From: a bacterium
Lineage (GTDB): Bacteria > JAJVIF01 > JAGGVT01
Direction of reading: 5' to 3'
Length of the DNA: 8,371 bases
NCBI GenBank assembly: GCA_021157815.1
Contig: JAGGVT010000034.1
Location: forward strand, 1-8,371
A program made the translations under genes and the position numbers. The notes beneath the pieces were generated by a model. It made no database searches and was not told where the DNA came from. It was given only the letters and a program-made list of their open reading frames with translations. Positions 14 to 8,371 of this stretch are shown one piece after another; position 1 is the stretch's first letter, and each line of letters opens with the position of its first letter.

Positions 14-1894
14 ATGAATGAAAAAATCAAAACAAAACTCGATCCTGATTGGCAGGAAAAATTCAGCGATATGATCGCGACAGCCGATGAGGCTGTTGCC
101 AATATCACACCCGGTGAGCGTGTGTTTATCGGAACAGGCTGCGCCACGCCAATCCAGCTAATCTCATCATTGGCAAAAAGAGCGAATGAACTGGCGGATA
201 TCGAATTGATTCATCTTCTGACACAGGGTGATGCGCCATACGCCGAGCGGGAACTCGCGCAGCATTTTAAGGTCAACAGTTTTTTCATCGCCGCAAATGT
301 CAGAGATATCATCCAGCAGGGGCTGGGGGATTACACTCCTATATTTCTTTCAGATATCCCAAAACTGTTCAATTCCGGACAGCTTCCGCTCGATGTCGCT
401 TTAATCGAGGTTTCCCCTCCGGACATGAGAGGCTATTGCAGCCTTGGAGTTTCAGTGGATATTGTCAAAAGCGCCGCTGAAAATGCCAGTGTGGTTATAG
501 CACAGGTCAATTCGAAAATGCCACGCACACAAGGAGACAGTTTTATGCACATATACGATTTCGATATTCTTGTGCCGGTTGATATAGATATTCTCGAATT
601 CGAAATGCCTGAATCATCAGAGGAGATAAGCAAGATAGGGGAGTATATCGCAGCTCTGATTGATGACGGCTCCACAATTGAGGCGGGTATTGGGCGAATT
701 CCTCAGGCTGTTCTTTCCCACCTGCATAAAAAAAAAGATCTCGGAATACATACTGAAATGCTTTCTGATTCCATCGTTGACCTGATTGAATCCGGTGTTA
801 TCAATGGCAAGCAGAAATCCATTGATAGAGACAAGGTCGTAGCCAGCTTCTGCATGGGAACTAAAAAACTCTATGATTACATCGATGACAATCCGGTGTT
901 CTCGTTTAATCCGACTGAATATGTAAACGATCCGTTTCTAATCAGCCAGCAGCACAAGATGGTCGCGATTAACGTCGCCTTGGAAGTTGATCTGACAGGC
1001 CAGGTTTGTTCCGATTCACTTGGAACACATTTCTATTCAGGCATAGGCGGCCAGGTTGATTTCAACAGGGGCGCGTCCCGTTCTCAAAAAGGAAAAGCGA
1101 TAATAGCGCTGCCATCAACAGCAAAAGCCGGAAAAATCAGCAGGATTGTGCCGTATTTAAGCCAGGGAGCGGGTGTTGTAACAACTCGCGGCGATGTTCA
1201 TTATGTCGTTACTGAATACGGCGTTGCATATCTTCATGGCAAAAGCGTCCAGGAACGCACGCTTGCGTTGATTAGTATCGCACATCCTGATTTCCGCGCT
1301 GAACTGCTGAGAGCGGCAATCGAAGCCAAATATGTACGGTCTGAACTTGCGGATATTGAGGGTAAAATTCTTGTCGGGCCGCAGGAACTCAGAACAGCTT
1401 ACCTTCTCAGCGACGGTACACAGATTAATTTCCGGCCTGTTCATCCAACGGATGAAGCTGAAATGAAAGACCTGTTCTATGACATGTCAGAGGATTCCAT
1501 CTACTATCGATTTATGGGCAGATTGAAAAGAGCTCCTCTAAAACAGATTCACGATTTTGTTTATATCGACCACCGAAACGAGGTCTCGATTGTCGGTACT
1601 CTTCCTGCGGTGCACGGAGAGGATATAATCGCTGTCGGCGGATATTATCTTGACCCTCTGACCAACCGTGCCGAGGTCGCGTTCATTGTCCATGACAAAT
1701 GGCACAACAAGGGAATCGGTTCGTTTCTGCTGAGGTACCTTATCCAGATTGCGAGAAGAAACGGAATCGCCGGTTTCACCGCTGAGGTGCTTCAAGAGAA
1801 CAAAGCAATGCAGGCCGTTTTCCATAAAAGCGGTTGCATGATAAAAACAACGATGGATGGTGGAATCTACAGTTTCGAGCTCGATTTTGTTTAA
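14..1894 (+). CDS. Acetyl-CoA hydrolase/CoA-transferase family protein with C-terminal GNAT acetyltransferase domain
   Basis: The 626-aa protein has two parts. Residues about 10-450 match the acetyl-CoA hydrolase / 4-hydroxybutyrate CoA-transferase family, which moves CoA between acyl-CoA and a carboxylate (often acetate) in the cytoplasm. The segment GIHTEML carries Glu248, placed like the family's catalytic glutamate that forms the CoA thioester. GIGGQVDFNRGA (343-354) is the conserved glycine-rich CoA-site motif. Residues about 470-626 are a GNAT N-acyltransferase domain: INFRPVHPTDEAEM opens it, and HNKGIG (564-569) is the acetyl-CoA pyrophosphate loop, with His where the Q/R-x-x-G-x-G/A consensus has Gln or Arg. 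Plain CoA-transferases of this family are about 430-500 aa, so the extra length is the GNAT domain. Such fusions are known in other bacteria; the acyl-acceptor of the GNAT part is unknown. The ATG is preceded by AGG (2-4) at a spacing of 9. The promoter lies outside the window. The substrate cannot be fixed from sequence. Confidence 0.93.
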   Translation: MNEKIKTKLDPDWQEKFSDMIATADEAVANITPGERVFIGTGCATPIQLISSLAKRANELADIELIHLLTQGDAPYAERELAQHFKVNSFFIAANVRDIIQQGLGDYTPIFLSDIPKLFNSGQLPLDVALIEVSPPDMRGYCSLGVSVDIVKSAAENASVVIAQVNSKMPRTQGDSFMHIYDFDILVPVDIDILEFEMPESSEEISKIGEYIAALIDDGSTIEAGIGRIPQAVLSHLHKKKDLGIHTEMLSDSIVDLIESGVINGKQKSIDRDKVVASFCMGTKKLYDYIDDNPVFSFNPTEYVNDPFLISQQHKMVAINVALEVDLTGQVCSDSLGTHFYSGIGGQVDFNRGASRSQKGKAIIALPSTAKAGKISRIVPYLSQGAGVVTTRGDVHYVVTEYGVAYLHGKSVQERTLALISIAHPDFRAELLRAAIEAKYVRSELADIEGKILVGPQELRTAYLLSDGTQINFRPVHPTDEAEMKDLFYDMSEDSIYYRFMGRLKRAPLKQIHDFVYIDHRNEVSIVGTLPAVHGEDIIAVGGYYLDPLTNRAEVAFIVHDKWHNKGIGSFLLRYLIQIARRNGIAGFTAEVLQENKAMQAVFHKSGCMIKTTMDGGIYSFELDFV

Positions 1895-2557: not shown

Positions 2558-3208
2558 TTATGGATCAAAGATACCACATACATCGTATGCCAGATTGAAT
2601 TCAAAGAGCCCTGAACGGAAGGAGATATTGAAATCTGTCGTCGTACAACCCCAGCCGAAATAGCAATCCATCGGTATTGTATATTTTCCTCTGAGTTGAC
2701 AAGAACCATACGGTTCGATTTCAAGAGGGTCCCAGATTTGAGTGGAATCACCCGGCAATGGAACCATTGATGGCCAGAATCTGGTGCATGCAGTAAGTTG
2801 CGCGTTCAGGATTGGATATAAGTTCAGCGGAACACTGCCGTTGTAGTCGATATCCAAATCATATACGATTGTGTCGCCACGACGGTAAATGGGGTAAAGG
2901 TTTTGATATAATCCTCGATGGTTTTTATATTCAAGTTCAATACCAAGCACTGGAATTGGTTCAACCGCGGCACCGCGATCCGCAACAAATGTCAGGTTGC
3001 CTTGTTTATCCCTAATTACATTGCCTGTCTGGTAACTGCCATCGTTGCCAGTCCATGTGTAACTGCCGACTATTCCGTCAAGTGATGGAGGAGTGCCGAG
3101 GTAAGCTTCAATATCATTACTTCCTTGAGGCACTGTGGGATTACTGCTGCATCCCAGACTAATAAAAAGTCCTGTGACAAACAACACTAAAAGAAAATGC
3201 CTAATCAT
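2558..3208 (-). CDS. Small lipoprotein A, paralogue of B and C (family not recognised)
   Basis: A 216-aa exported protein. Residues 1-19 are a signal peptide (MIRHFLLVLFVTGLFISLG) ending at Cys20, the predicted lipidated residue; the lipobox S-L-G-C is not the classical L-A/S-G-C. Next come a flexible Ser/Pro linker (21-31) and a beta-rich domain. Shared with B and C are GSYTWTGNDGSYQTG (48-62), DRGA (77-80), PLNLYPIL (127-134), LPGDST..WDP (151-161) and the C-terminal CGIFDP. Identity to C is about 40% by hand count, nearly gapless. Cys188 and Cys211 are shared with C; Cys141, Cys170 and Cys182 are extra. I chose the ATG at 3208: a GGAGGT site (3216-3221) precedes it by 7 bases, and the alternative TTG at 3223 overlaps that site. 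The start also matches MIKHF of C. It has its own promoter and terminators. Function unknown; binding or structural roles are possible. Confidence 0.85.
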   Translation of the reverse strand: MIRHFLLVLFVTGLFISLGCSSNPTVPQGSNDIEAYLGTPPSLDGIVGSYTWTGNDGSYQTGNVIRDKQGNLTFVADRGAAVEPIPVLGIELEYKNHRGLYQNLYPIYRRGDTIVYDLDIDYNGSVPLNLYPILNAQLTACTRFWPSMVPLPGDSTQIWDPLEIEPYGSCQLRGKYTIPMDCYFGWGCTTTDFNISFRSGLFEFNLAYDVCGIFDP

Positions 3209-3309: not shown

Positions 3310-3312
3310 GGC

Positions 3313-3341
3313 AAAAAAGAGACCTGCGCATTGGCAGGTCT
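3313..3341 (-). terminator. Rho-independent terminator of lipoprotein B
   Basis: On the minus strand AGACCTGC (3341-3334) pairs perfectly with GCAGGTCT (3327-3320) around a 6-nt loop, followed by C and six T (3318-3313). It begins 29 bases after the stop codon. The stem sequence recurs in the terminator of C, so it was probably duplicated with the gene. Confidence 0.88.
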
Positions 3342-3369
3342 TGCTCATTTCAAATGTCAATATATTGAC

Positions 3370-4026
3370 TTAGGGATCCCAGAGTCCGCAAATACCGTGG
3401 GCCAGCTGGAACTGGAACATTCCAAACATGAATTGCAAGTCGATTTTGCAGACTGTGCAATCATTACCTGGAACCGTGCCGGATACGATTTTGAATGTAT
3501 CAAGAACTTCGACATATCCGTGTGGTGCAATCAGGAAAGGATCCCAGACTTCGGTTGAGTTTCCGGGGAGAAGTTGCATCCCGGGATAATATCTCTGCTC
3601 AGCTGTGAGCTTTCCGTAAAGAATGGGGTACAGGTTCAATGGCAATCCACGTTTGTAATCAACCATGATTTTGTACGTGAATGTGTCACCTAAGTAATAA
3701 TAGGGAAGTCCCATTCCTGTGTAGCCGCGTGGATTCATGTATTCAACGTCAACGTCGAACCACCAGTTTGAATAAACCGATGCGCCTCGATCTGACACAA
3801 GCTGAACCTCACCATCAGGTCCCGCGACAAGCATACCTGTTTCGTATGAGCCATCTGTTCCTGTGAATGTGTAACTGCCGATAATTCCTGAAATCTCAGG
3901 ATTGACATTCGCGAAGAATGCTTCAAGATCATTATCTGCGACAGGTGTAGTTGGGTTGCCACCACAGCCAAACGCGACAAGCAAGCTGACTAGAAGAATC
4001 GCTGCGAGGTTAATTCTCAAAAGCAT
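3370..4026 (-). CDS. Small lipoprotein B, paralogue of A and C (family not recognised)
   Basis: A 218-aa exported protein. A signal peptide ends at Cys21 (lipobox A-F-G-C), followed by a Pro/Thr linker (GGNPTTPV) and an aromatic-rich, probably beta-sheet domain. Motifs shared with the paralogues: GSYTFTGTDGSYETG (50-64), DRGASV (79-84), LPLNLYPIL (128-136), LPGNSTEVWDP (153-163) and terminal CGLWDP. A Cys-x-x-Cys pair (190, 193) and Cys213 could form disulfides outside the cytoplasm. From about residue 82 to 204 it is almost the same as C; before that only about 70%. The ATG at 4026 has a GAGGAG site (4033-4038) six bases upstream. It has its own promoter and terminator, so it is probably a single-gene unit. 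The ligand or partner is unknown. Confidence 0.88.
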   Translation of the reverse strand: MLLRINLAAILLVSLLVAFGCGGNPTTPVADNDLEAFFANVNPEISGIIGSYTFTGTDGSYETGMLVAGPDGEVQLVSDRGASVYSNWWFDVDVEYMNPRGYTGMGLPYYYLGDTFTYKIMVDYKRGLPLNLYPILYGKLTAEQRYYPGMQLLPGNSTEVWDPFLIAPHGYVEVLDTFKIVSGTVPGNDCTVCKIDLQFMFGMFQFQLAHGICGLWDP

Positions 4027-4102
4027 GACAAGCTCCTCTCTATAGGGATAGGTAATAGCAATATTTAATAAGCGTAAGCCATAAAAGAGCCATACATATA
4101 TT

Positions 4103-4130
4103 ATTAAACTGCCTTTTTCAATTTTGTCAA
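4103..4130 (-). promoter_or_regulatory. Predicted sigma70-type promoter of lipoprotein B
   Basis: On the minus strand TTGACA (4130-4125) is a perfect -35 box and TTTAAT (4108-4103) a 5/6 -10 box, spacing 16. It lies downstream of the terminators of C and gives a leader of about 70 bases before the start codon at 4026. Confidence 0.6.
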
Positions 4131-4182
4131 GTAATTTATTGCATGATTTATTTTCATTCCACTTCTATAGGTGCGAAAACTC

Positions 4183-4213
4183 AAAAAAAAATATCCAATC
4201 AGGGATTGGATAT
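4183..4213 (-). terminator. Distal Rho-independent terminator of lipoprotein C
   Basis: On the minus strand ATATCCAATC (4213-4204) pairs perfectly with GATTGGATAT (4200-4191) around a 3-nt loop, followed directly by eight T (4190-4183). This is the stronger of two tandem terminators after C. Confidence 0.88.
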
Positions 4214-4243
4214 TAAAATAGACCTGCCATAAGGGCCAGGTCT
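4214..4243 (-). terminator. Proximal Rho-independent terminator of lipoprotein C (weaker)
   Basis: AGACCTG (4243-4237 on the minus strand) pairs with CAGGTCT (4226-4220), extended by a CC/GG inner stem with one bulged G, then ATTTTAAT. The arms copy those of the terminator of B, 27 bases after the stop here against 29 there. The T-tract is poor, which may explain the second hairpin behind it. On the plus strand GTTTTTG follows, so it may also stop some plus-strand reading. Confidence 0.6.
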
Positions 4244-4269
4244 GTTTTTGTTAAAATTGCTTTAAATCT

Positions 4270-4920
4270 TTAAGGATCCCAAAGACCACAGATACCGTGA
4301 GCCAGTCTGAACTGGAACATTCCAAACATGAATTGCAAGTCGATTTTGCAGACTGTGCAATCATTACCTGGAACCGTGCCGGATACGATCTTGAATGTAT
4401 CAAGAACTTCGACATATCCGTGTGGTGCAATCAGGAAAGGATCCCAGACTTCGGTTGAGTTTCCAGGGAGAAGTTGCATCCCGGGATAATACCTCTGCTC
4501 AGCTGTGAGCTTTCCGTAAAGAATGGGGTACAGGTTCAATGGCAATCCACGTTTGTAATCAACCTTGACTCTGTACGTGAATGTGTCACCTAGGTAATAA
4601 TAGGGGAGTCCCATTCCTGTGTAGCCGCGAGGATCCAGGTATTCAACGTCAACGTCGAACCACCAGTTTGAATAAACTGATGCTCCTCGGTCAGATACTA
4701 GAGTGACTGTGCCCTTCTCATCCGCAACCAACGTACCGGTTTCAATTGAACCATCATTACCAGTGAATGTATAATCACCAATAATACCGGTCATTGATGG
4801 ATTAACACCTGCAAAGAACGCTTCCAAATCAGCGTTCGAATCAGGTGTGGCAGGACTGCTACAACCAACTGCCATCAACATTACACCGATGGTTAAAGCT
4901 GTTAGAAAGTGTTTAATCAA
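4270..4920 (-). CDS. Small lipoprotein C, paralogue of A and B, TTG start (family not recognised)
   Basis: A 216-aa exported protein. A signal peptide (MIKHFLTALTIGVMLMAVG) ends at Cys20 (lipobox A-V-G-C), then comes a short Ser/Pro linker and the domain shared with A and B: YTFTGNDGSIETG (50-62), DRGASV (77-82), LPLNLYPIL (126-134), LPGNSTEVWDP (151-161), Cys188-x-x-Cys191 and terminal Cys211 in CGLWDP. The start is TTG at 4920: a consensus AGGAGGTG site (4927-4934) lies six bases before it, a TGA stop stands directly upstream in frame, and the first in-frame ATG would destroy the signal peptide. Its 3' part is about 97% identical to B over 370 bases, but the 5' part is only about 60% identical. 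It is divergent from the large lipoprotein gene. Role unknown. Confidence 0.88.
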   Translation of the reverse strand: MIKHFLTALTIGVMLMAVGCSSPATPDSNADLEAFFAGVNPSMTGIIGDYTFTGNDGSIETGTLVADEKGTVTLVSDRGASVYSNWWFDVDVEYLDPRGYTGMGLPYYYLGDTFTYRVKVDYKRGLPLNLYPILYGKLTAEQRYYPGMQLLPGNSTEVWDPFLIAPHGYVEVLDTFKIVSGTVPGNDCTVCKIDLQFMFGMFQFRLAHGICGLWDP

Positions 4921-4926
4921 TCAATT

Positions 4927-4934
4927 CACCTCCT
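4927..4934 (-). promoter_or_regulatory. Consensus ribosome-binding site that fixes the TTG start of C
   Basis: On the minus strand AGGAGGTG is a full Shine-Dalgarno match, spaced six bases from the TTG at 4920. Its strength offsets the weak start codon and decides the start. Confidence 0.8.
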
Positions 4935-5007
4935 CTCGCCATAGATATGGTGAGATTATTAGTTAATTTTAATGCATAAATTATAAAGATTATTTAAAGA
5001 CACTTAT

Positions 5008-5036
5008 ATAATTGCACAATTTTTGAACAATGTCAA
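5008..5036 (-). promoter_or_regulatory. Predicted sigma70-type promoter of lipoprotein C
   Basis: On the minus strand TTGACA (5036-5031) is a perfect -35 box, with AATTAT (5013-5008, 4/6) as -10 at spacing 17. The start would be near 5001, with a leader of about 80 bases. Confidence 0.45.
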
Positions 5037-5096
5037 CATTAGAAATGATTTATTATCTGTTTTATTCAATACACTTTGGTTAAGCCAATTTTGGAA

Positions 5097-5126
5097 TTGA
5101 CCAGTTTTTCAAGATGTTCATGTAAT
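5097..5126 (+). promoter_or_regulatory. Candidate upstream promoter of the PKD lipoprotein
   Basis: TTGACC (5097-5102, 5/6) and TGTAAT (5121-5126, 5/6), spacing 18. It would give a leader of about 200 bases. The -35 box is part of the 12-bp direct repeat in this region. Confidence 0.35.
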
Positions 5127-5217
5127 CACTCAATGTTATTTCTATATCGACCAGTTTCATTACACCGTTTAACCTGGGAAACATCAAAAAGAGTATTTTG
5201 GTATAAGGTGTGTAAAA

Positions 5218-5245
5218 TTGGAGCGGATAGTGCTAACATTATAAT
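5218..5245 (+). promoter_or_regulatory. Candidate downstream promoter of the PKD lipoprotein
   Basis: A perfect TATAAT (5240-5245) with a weak -35 TTGGAG (5218-5223) at spacing 16, giving a leader of about 80 bases. The weak -35 box could mean dependence on an activator. Confidence 0.4.
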
Positions 5246-5321
5246 TGTATTTAGATTTGAGCATGTGGTTCACAAGAATAAAACCTGTGAAACTTCGTTG
5301 TTTCCAAATAGATATTGAGCG

Positions 5322-5325
5322 AGGA
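5322..5325 (+). promoter_or_regulatory. Ribosome-binding site that decides the start of the PKD lipoprotein
   Basis: AGGA within GCGAGGA lies six bases before ATG 5332, which opens a proper signal peptide. The longer in-frame start at 5245 has no such site. Confidence 0.7.
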
Positions 5326-5331
5326 TTTACT

Positions 5332-8088
5332 ATGATTTCAGAAATCTCTAACCGATTAACCTGTTACATTCTGCCACTTGGTTTAATTTTCATCTTGCTG
5401 ATAGCTGGATGCTCCTCTTCAAAAGGCGGCAATCCAATTTCACCGTCGAGTGATTTTAACCAGTTGGAATCCATATCTGAAATACCACCTGCGATTAGAA
5501 CGGGCGCGAACAGCTATATGGGGATGCTTGGACTATATGACTTGTCTATAAATCCAGCCGGCAACCATGCTGAAATTGTCCCGATTCGATTATCCGACAC
5601 GCTTGGTGAACAATATGTGGTTGACATTGTTAGTTTCCTGAATATTTCACCTTGTGCGGATTGCGTTCGTATTATGGGCATTGAACTGGAGCCTGATGGA
5701 ACAATCACGGTGAATATCGGAATTCGCCACCCGTTCCCTTTGCCTGTCGATATGGAGAATCCGCAAAACAACGAACGCCTTGACCTTCACGTTTTCGACG
5801 TTCAGGGAATACTCGTTCTCGATGGCGATTTTGAATTCCCGTTGACTGTCAGTGATGTCAACGCTGATTGCATTTTTGAGGAATCGATTGTTTCATCAAG
5901 AGATATTCTTCGAAACGCGGATGGGTACACGTCCATTTTTGATTCCTTCTACGATACCATTTTCCCGACGACATCAAACATACATCCTTTTAAACTGTTT
6001 GCGCGTGATGGTTCCGAGGGGAATTACAATCCGGATTATGACCCGCTCAATGGATTTCCTTTCCTTGATAATCCAACCGGACATAATGTTTTCAGGCAGG
6101 CATGTCCCGAATATATAGTTGGATACAATCTGGCTCTAACACCGGGGCAAAATTACAATTTCCTGTTCGCGCTTTCCGCAAGTTATGGCCAATCCGCTAA
6201 GGGTAAAGGCACCGAACTGGGCAAACGCAACAACCCGAGATATTTCCTTCCGGAGTTCAATCGCAAGGAGCCGTGGATGGTTACTTGTGAAATTACTAGC
6301 AGTAACCTTGCCGGTTATACGCCATCCAGTTATGCAGACATGGTTATTGAAATTCGGGATTGGCAGAACAATGCAACAGTTGACCCTGATTTCGATTTCA
6401 TGACATCGTCACTAAGATCGATTAGCCGTGAAAGCGGTATTCGAAATGTTACACTCGAGGTTCCGGGAATGTCCCTGATGCTGAATGAGTACACTCTTCC
6501 CGTACCGACTGGAAATGGTTCCGATACAAGCCCATTAAAATATCAACTCAGGATATATAACGAGGGCCTGGTTCCTGAGGGAATTTACTATGGTCTTGTT
6601 ACCGCTCGCGATGATCTTGAGGGAACAGTCCTTTCTATCGGTATTGAACGGGATGGAGTGACCATATTTCCGGTAAATGATTTTTCAACATACCAGGTTT
6701 TCACTCTGGATGTCGCACAGGCTGATTACCCGCCGGTTCCGGTTATAACAACGATTCCCGACCCGCCACAAATTCTTGAAACAAATCAGCCGATTACATT
6801 CGATGGCAGCCTGTCCACTGATGACAGTGCGATTGTGTCGTACGAGTGGGATTTCGACTACACTGGTTCCAATTACGATTTCCATGTGGGCAGAACCGGT
6901 GCGGATGTGGATTATAGTTATCCTGTTCCCGGATTCTACACCGCTGCGCTGAGAGTTACAGATGACCATGTTCCAGCCCAGCAGGCAATTGGATTGATTA
7001 ACGTAAGTGTTTTCTGCAATACTTTCACGGTGGGTTCATGCCCAATAAGCGAACGCCCGGACTGGCTGGTAACATCACATAATGAGGACTGGGAAACTGA
7101 GGACGGCAAGGTTGATTTTGGTTTCCTTTCAAACGGTGATGTAGTTATCGAGGATAACGAAATACTTGGAAGAGCGAATGTCAGCCCGTCCGGAGGCGCG
7201 GGTTTCATGCCTTTCATAAGCAATTACCCCGGAGTTAATGTCGGTTCAATTGATGTTGACCGCGAGGATAGGGTTATCTGGGTGCAATATAATGGTCCTG
7301 ATGCAGTAATCATTGGTGGCCTGTTAGCTCGTAACACGGAATACGGTAATGTTGTTCATGTTTTCGATACCATTTCAAATTCCGAGATTGCCGCTATTTC
7401 TCTTGATTCCTATTGTAACTACATTCAGGCAATTGATACTGACGAGGGAAATAACGTCTGGGTCATAATGGAAGGAAACAAGACAATCAAACTGCGAGCC
7501 AGCGATTTCACAGCAGTTCAATCCAATATCTATGAACTAAATGATATTGCCGGTGAGGATATGGGATTGGTTTTTGATCTGGCAATAGATTTCCATAACG
7601 ACTGCTATTACGTTCTTACTGATTCGCATGATAAGGGCGCACTATACAGGTTTGAATGTGATTTGACATTCCAGCCAATGGTCAATGGGAATCCAAATCC
7701 GCTTGACGAGGTTTTCGACATGGTTGGCAGTTTCCAGATTATTGAAACCTTTGGTGATGATGCTCTCGCTGATATTGAAATCGACAACTTTTCCGGTTCA
7801 GGATACGGAAGCGTTCTTGATGGTGCACAGGATTGCCAAATTGTGATGTTTGCGAATGGGTTGCTGCCGACCACACAGATGTTCGCATCGCGAACTGTCG
7901 TAAACGCTGATTTGGAAATACTTGCGCAGGGAATCGATTCAACCGGATTCGGCACTCATGCGATTGCCATTAACCCGGACGGCACTAATCATATTTACTC
8001 GATTGTGTATGGCAATACTCCTTATCTGCCCCCAGGTTGTTCCGACAAGGAGATGGATGTTTATCTGGCACCGACCGGCTGGTTGTAG
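5332..8088 (+). CDS. Large PKD-domain lipoprotein with propeller-like C-terminus
   Basis: A 918-aa exported protein. The signal peptide (MISEISNRLTCYILPLGLIF to residue 26) ends at Cys27 in a classical I-A-G-C lipobox, then a Ser/Gly/Pro linker (SSSKGGNPISPSS). Residues about 45-440 are a region I do not recognise, beta-rich, with a Cys-x-x-Cys pair (108, 111). Residues about 468-559 are a PKD domain: FDGSLSTDDSAIVSYEWDFD carries the W-D-F core (506-508) and GFYTAALRVTDD its last strands. Residues about 570-918 look like a beta-propeller or NHL-like region (SIDVDREDRVIWVQYNG, AIDTDEGNNVWVIMEG, DLAIDFHNDCYYVLTDS recur as blade-like units). PKD domains usually mediate surface protein or glycan contacts. 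I chose ATG 5332, with AGGA (5322-5325) six bases upstream; starting at 5245 would place 29 charged residues before the signal peptide. No enzyme motif is seen. No good terminator follows. Confidence 0.88.
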   Translation: MISEISNRLTCYILPLGLIFILLIAGCSSSKGGNPISPSSDFNQLESISEIPPAIRTGANSYMGMLGLYDLSINPAGNHAEIVPIRLSDTLGEQYVVDIVSFLNISPCADCVRIMGIELEPDGTITVNIGIRHPFPLPVDMENPQNNERLDLHVFDVQGILVLDGDFEFPLTVSDVNADCIFEESIVSSRDILRNADGYTSIFDSFYDTIFPTTSNIHPFKLFARDGSEGNYNPDYDPLNGFPFLDNPTGHNVFRQACPEYIVGYNLALTPGQNYNFLFALSASYGQSAKGKGTELGKRNNPRYFLPEFNRKEPWMVTCEITSSNLAGYTPSSYADMVIEIRDWQNNATVDPDFDFMTSSLRSISRESGIRNVTLEVPGMSLMLNEYTLPVPTGNGSDTSPLKYQLRIYNEGLVPEGIYYGLVTARDDLEGTVLSIGIERDGVTIFPVNDFSTYQVFTLDVAQADYPPVPVITTIPDPPQILETNQPITFDGSLSTDDSAIVSYEWDFDYTGSNYDFHVGRTGADVDYSYPVPGFYTAALRVTDDHVPAQQAIGLINVSVFCNTFTVGSCPISERPDWLVTSHNEDWETEDGKVDFGFLSNGDVVIEDNEILGRANVSPSGGAGFMPFISNYPGVNVGSIDVDREDRVIWVQYNGPDAVIIGGLLARNTEYGNVVHVFDTISNSEIAAISLDSYCNYIQAIDTDEGNNVWVIMEGNKTIKLRASDFTAVQSNIYELNDIAGEDMGLVFDLAIDFHNDCYYVLTDSHDKGALYRFECDLTFQPMVNGNPNPLDEVFDMVGSFQIIETFGDDALADIEIDNFSGSGYGSVLDGAQDCQIVMFANGLLPTTQMFASRTVVNADLEILAQGIDSTGFGTHAIAINPDGTNHIYSIVYGNTPYLPPGCSDKEMDVYLAPTGWL

Positions 8089-8371
8089 GATATATAAATA
8101 TTTAAAATCAAGGCTCTCCAATAAATCGTGTGGGTTGAGTATAGATTGAGCAAAAAAAAGGGGATTGTCCCAACTACGTTTATTAATGCGATAAACACTG
8201 GGGTTATTTATAAGGCTCATTGAAATCATCAAGTTTGAAGCCTCATGTGGACGTACCCCATTATTGGGGAATGCTCCTTTTTGCGGATAGAACGATTCGG
8301 TATTCACCCTAAATCCGCGATGGGATATTTTCGTATCACCTACGGCTCGCAGGTTATGTGGGAAGCTCTCG
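8089..8371. other. Intergenic right end with several short stem-loops, no supported gene
   Basis: After the PKD lipoprotein comes an AT-rich stretch, then an A8 run (8152-8159), then a series of short inverted repeats: GGGA/TCCC (8161-8171), GTTTAT/ATAAAC (8178-8196), AGGCT/AGCCT (8213-8243), CCCCA/TGGGG (8256-8269) and GCGGAT/ATCCGC (8283-8318). One open frame runs from ATG 8245 to the window edge without a good ribosome-binding site; I do not call it. I match no known RNA family. Confidence 0.5.
8152..8171 (-). terminator. Possible weak intrinsic terminator for a minus-strand transcript
   Basis: On the minus strand GGGA-CAA-TCCC is followed by C and eight T. The stem is only 4 bp, so this is weak. 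It would end transcripts entering from the right edge. The same GGG can pair instead with CCCA to form a longer outer stem (8169-8202). Confidence 0.3.

Follow-up and report, generated by a model that had tools for sequence, protein, structure and literature searches.

In Salmonella, conversion between the tuf genes runs for about 500 nt either way (PMC5485169), and in Borrelia segmental conversion acts on the surface lipoprotein gene vlsE, with tracts up to 423 bp (review PMC4534519). The tract described here, shared by two adjacent lipoprotein genes that we call B and C, measures 369 bp with both edges inside the gene, and its length is thus ordinary in comparison with both systems. Like tufA and tufB, B and C show block-like transfer between intact functional paralogues over several hundred bases; however, the tuf copies are near-identical overall and lie 762 kb apart, whereas B and C lie next to each other and are diverged except in the tract (PMC5485169). 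With vlsE they share partial tracts within lipoprotein genes (PMC4534519), but there are no silent cassettes here: each copy begins with a start codon and signal peptide of its own and ends in its own stop, and nothing points to diversifying selection. From the concerted evolution of bacterial tandem paralogue families, where homogenised stretches also occur in old duplicates, B and C differ in no point of principle; they add a new family, from an uncultured lineage. The process is known and the example is fresh, and that B and C carry a real conversion tract in an uncharacterised lipoprotein family is well supported.

The analysed stretch of DNA (the window, 8371 bp) is one complete contig of the source assembly, a metagenome-type draft of 3.2 Mb in 221 contigs with completeness of 90.88, which may leave about 9% of the genome unrepresented. 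Three lipoprotein genes stand in tandem on the minus strand, each with a lipobox at the end of its signal peptide: A (2558..3208, FISLGC), B (3370..4026, 218 aa, LVAFGC) and C (4270..4920, 216 aa, TTG start, LMAVGC). B and C are both intact, and A, the third paralogue of the tandem, shares about 42% identity with C and took no part in the exchange described below. A family profile search of the assembly found A, B and C as the only full-length members in the source genome. Their conserved neighbour is a large PKD-domain lipoprotein gene on the plus strand (5332..8088), divergent from A, B and C. At the other end of the window (14-1894), an Acetyl-CoA hydrolase/transferase is fused to a GNAT acetyltransferase domain. 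Similar stems (GACCTGC...CAGGTC) occur in the probable terminators of B (3310-3350) and C (4195-4255), in flanks that are otherwise unalignable.

The tract occupies 3409..3777 in B and 4309..4677 in C, on the minus strand in both, and covers codons ~84-206 of B with at most 12 differences to C. Recounting 3411-3780 of B against 4311-4680 of C (offset +900) gives the figures of the initial annotation, 12 differences in 370 bases with three of these in 3411-3660. The longest exact runs measure 81 bp (3409-3489), 74 bp (3491-3564) and 72 bp (3593-3664). The sharp edges described there are also borne out, and they are abrupt on both sides. Above 3780, towards the 5´ ends of the genes, 17 of the 30 bases differ at 3791-3820. 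On the 3´ side, where an excess of differences just before 3411 had already been seen, B and C differ at 9/36 bases (3373-3408), mostly by silent changes within the final 12 codons; the intergenic flank beyond is unrelated. This return of divergence on both sides, with two close edges within the gene, indicates a copied segment. A search of the ~91%-complete assembly at the DNA level found no further copies or fragments, B being the only other place of the tract in C; presence in these two genes only means that the exchange took place between B and C.

The silent sites carry the argument. In the codon alignment, synonymous changes between B and C number 7/80.5 inside 3409-3780 (p-distance 0.087, dS 0.092; dN 0.017), whereas the 5´ part of B outside the tract (3781..4026, minus strand) is saturated, with pS of 35/44.5 (0.79) in the mature part and 0.81 in the signal peptide. 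The last 12 codons of B (3373..3408, minus strand), a tail of these 12 codons only, hold 6 silent codon changes and one Q/R replacement and are saturated as well (7.5/8.5, pS 0.88). The tract differs from the 5´ part with Fisher p ~1e-18 (7/80 vs ~48/60) and from the 3´ tail with p ~4e-6 (7/80 vs ~7/8). A permutation scan restricted to degenerate codons of identical amino acids picks codons 84-208, with 6/112 changed inside and 37/57 outside, and none of 2000 shuffles was as extreme. Because the low change persists at such codons, a conserved protein is not its cause, and protein constraint is refuted by the drop at silent sites. Further, the synonymous sites of A-B and A-C are saturated along the whole stretch, which excludes a general constraint at DNA level. 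Gene conversion is recognised by a sharply bounded low-dS stretch flanked by high dS and by a donor in the same genome; B and C show such a stretch, and the tract is found in these two genes only.

The initial annotation had read the block as gene conversion and had named equal dS inside and outside, or a block held constant by constraint, as findings that would speak against it. Within this genome dS is low inside (0.09) and saturated on both sides, so that equal dS is excluded, and constraint is excluded by near-unchanged silent sites inside, saturated ones outside and the saturation of A-B and A-C there. The conversion reading therefore stands on the within-genome dS pattern; the alternative it carried, diversifying pressure on the 5´ part, is not supported, since pN in the mature part (0.24) is well below pS (0.79). 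dN/dS within the tract is ~0.2 and outside it pN stays well below pS; both B and C proteins are under purifying selection. Cassette-type antigenic variation of the vlsE or pilE kind was rejected, because A, B and C are each a complete lipoprotein ORF with a signal peptide, no additional copy or fragment was found in the assembly at DNA level, and the variable 5´ mature part has no excess of amino-acid over silent change. A diversity-generating retroelement was likewise discarded, as no reverse transcriptase was found (PF00078 without match in the ~91%-complete assembly).

Because B and C diverge again ahead of the stop codon and, beyond it, in the 3´ flank, simple tandem duplication is excluded as well, in agreement with the earlier rejection of a simple recent one. 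A whole-gene duplication would bring its flanks along. The same mosaic picture would nevertheless be expected if a whole gene had recently been duplicated in tandem and the 5´ part and 3´ tail of one copy had then been replaced from another paralogue, and the donor might belong to the ~9% of the genome that may be absent from the assembly. We consider this unlikely: it needs two replacements rather than one and an unseen donor, there being no other in the assembly; the intergenic flanks are without trace of recent duplication; and B and C are closest to each other in the 5´ part too (pN 0.24 vs 0.37 for A-B and 0.34 for A-C).

Even less probable is an artefact of assembly or consensus, in which reads of one copy were polished into the other. 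The 221 contigs of the draft and exact runs of 72-81 bp would fit such an error, but 12 differences persist, scattered and in 7 cases silent, and neither reading frame is interrupted; a collapse would be expected to yield exact identity or a contig break. Unequal crossing-over, to which tandem direct repeats are prone, would produce a hybrid gene instead of conversion, yet a single crossover would bring the 3´ end of the donor together with its downstream flank, and here B and C have diverged both in the final 12 codons and in the flank. Nothing speaks more strongly against duplication or unequal crossing-over than the silent changes in these codons, and we give the latter very little credence. 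Strong constraint on the C-terminal half, acting on protein or on DNA/RNA without any exchange, has practically no chance of being the answer: in the lipoprotein pair of a related genome (G002, below) the C-terminal part is also better conserved at amino-acid level, but that pair is evenly diverged at silent sites, the window contains no Rfam family, and no long antisense ORF runs over the tract in both copies.

Ectopic gene conversion between the old tandem duplicates B and C, presumably RecA-dependent, is thus very probably the origin of the tract. We suggest the following course. B and C would be old tandem duplicates, already saturated at silent sites when, relatively recently, about 370 bp of one gene were copied onto the other by homologous recombination. 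The copied stretch would begin near codon 84 and end 12 codons short of the stop, and the event would be an ectopic gene conversion, presumably during RecA-dependent repair with the neighbour as template. After copying, about 0.09 silent substitutions per site would have accrued under purifying selection on the protein. The outcome would be two complete secreted lipoproteins with a common C-terminal part and differing N-terminal parts. A recA gene is present in the source genome; we infer both the RecA dependence of the exchange and the number of conversion events, and GC3 points weakly to copying from B to C. The region 3663-3780 is less clean than 3409-3662, with nonsynonymous sites changed in 5/93 vs 0/199 (p 0.003), and all five amino-acid changes of the tract fall there, in two clusters (3665-3671 and 3735-3738). 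An earlier event overlapping with the main one, or patchy repair of a heteroduplex, may account for this region. Weighing against the conversion reading are the single genome of the family, the draft metagenome-type assembly, the 12-codon length of the tail and the uneven spread of nonsynonymous changes within the tract. As a half-gene conversion in an uncultured bacterial class, the case is both clean and statistically clear, and it warns that trees or identity values for the B/C paralogues vary by gene segment.

For comparison within the class we used three further genomes, all belonging to other families than the source. In the nearest genomes, homologues are only ~20-30% identical. Scans of genome contigs with the C protein and with the PKD alignment gave no relatives, and neither a scan of viral contigs nor a plasmid tblastn gave matches. 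In G002, from another family of the class (locus L008), the PKD lipoprotein has a full-length orthologue (40%), whose gene stands divergent from a tandem pair of lipoproteins belonging to the A/B/C family. This synteny shows that the neighbourhood is old, and it suggests that the PKD lipoprotein and the tandem lipoproteins may have a working link. The two tandem genes of G002, D1/D2, were considered as a second case of conversion after a look at the protein level, but their silent sites are evenly diverged and this syntenic pair has no low-dS tract. As to function, Pfam returned 0 matches for A, B or C, a comparison of six family members with Pfam and NCBIfam returned weak single-member matches only, and weak lysozyme matches of a PDB sequence search were taken as chance. 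An AlphaFold model of C, from an alignment of three rows, has mean pLDDT of 49.5. Judging by synteny and by this low-confidence model, proteins of the A/B/C type are probably envelope-anchored, beta-rich and secreted, and probably work with the neighbouring PKD lipoprotein.

A two-sequence profile of the PKD lipoprotein family has 60-120 matches per genome in the four genomes of the class (G000-G003), often in tandem, with ~120 in the source genome. Lipoprotein pairs were surveyed in the window, L008 and L051-L070, loci chosen for several PKD lipoproteins, and the counts are therefore not a genome-wide rate. Eleven pairs reach 50% or more amino-acid identity across the alignment (L054 was judged from the codon alignment). 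In five of the 11, 0/60 shuffles were as extreme, and one further pair (L062) is identical at silent sites. The clear cases are B/C and a neighbouring lipoprotein pair on contig C98 of the source genome (L057 4751-6530 and 9705-11427), whose N-terminal half holds patchy low-dS blocks (16/154 inside the low-dS tracts vs 100/263 outside); this pair, too, probably underwent gene conversion. The other three pairs at 0/60 have weaker gradients, which may come from older exchange or varying constraint. In L062 (G002), PKD lipoprotein genes at 4463-7283 and in a copy at +5280 are identical over ~2.8 kb with sharp edges. A run of Ns and an exact repeat of 127 bp adjoin this near-identical pair of 2.9 kb, and it was set aside as perhaps misassembled or simply duplicated in recent time; a conversion would also be conceivable. 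The conversion between B and C hints that the large lipoprotein families of the lineage evolve partly through exchange between neighbours. A bolder proposal would be that segmental conversion is frequent among neighbouring lipoprotein genes of this little-known class and steadily reshuffles N- and C-terminal parts in a very large surface repertoire, B/C then being not one chance event; this we hold to be rather doubtful.

The window also contains two dispersed repeats. The first (2030-2445) carries imperfect inverted repeats at its ends (2032-2068 / 2404-2440), encloses a further inverted repeat of 68 bp and resembles a MITE or a REP-type element. Used as a query, it has 53 matches in the genome assembly, mostly to two separate modules (query ~22-236 and ~226-414). 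The second (8112-8282) is 76% alike to L060 2948-3117.
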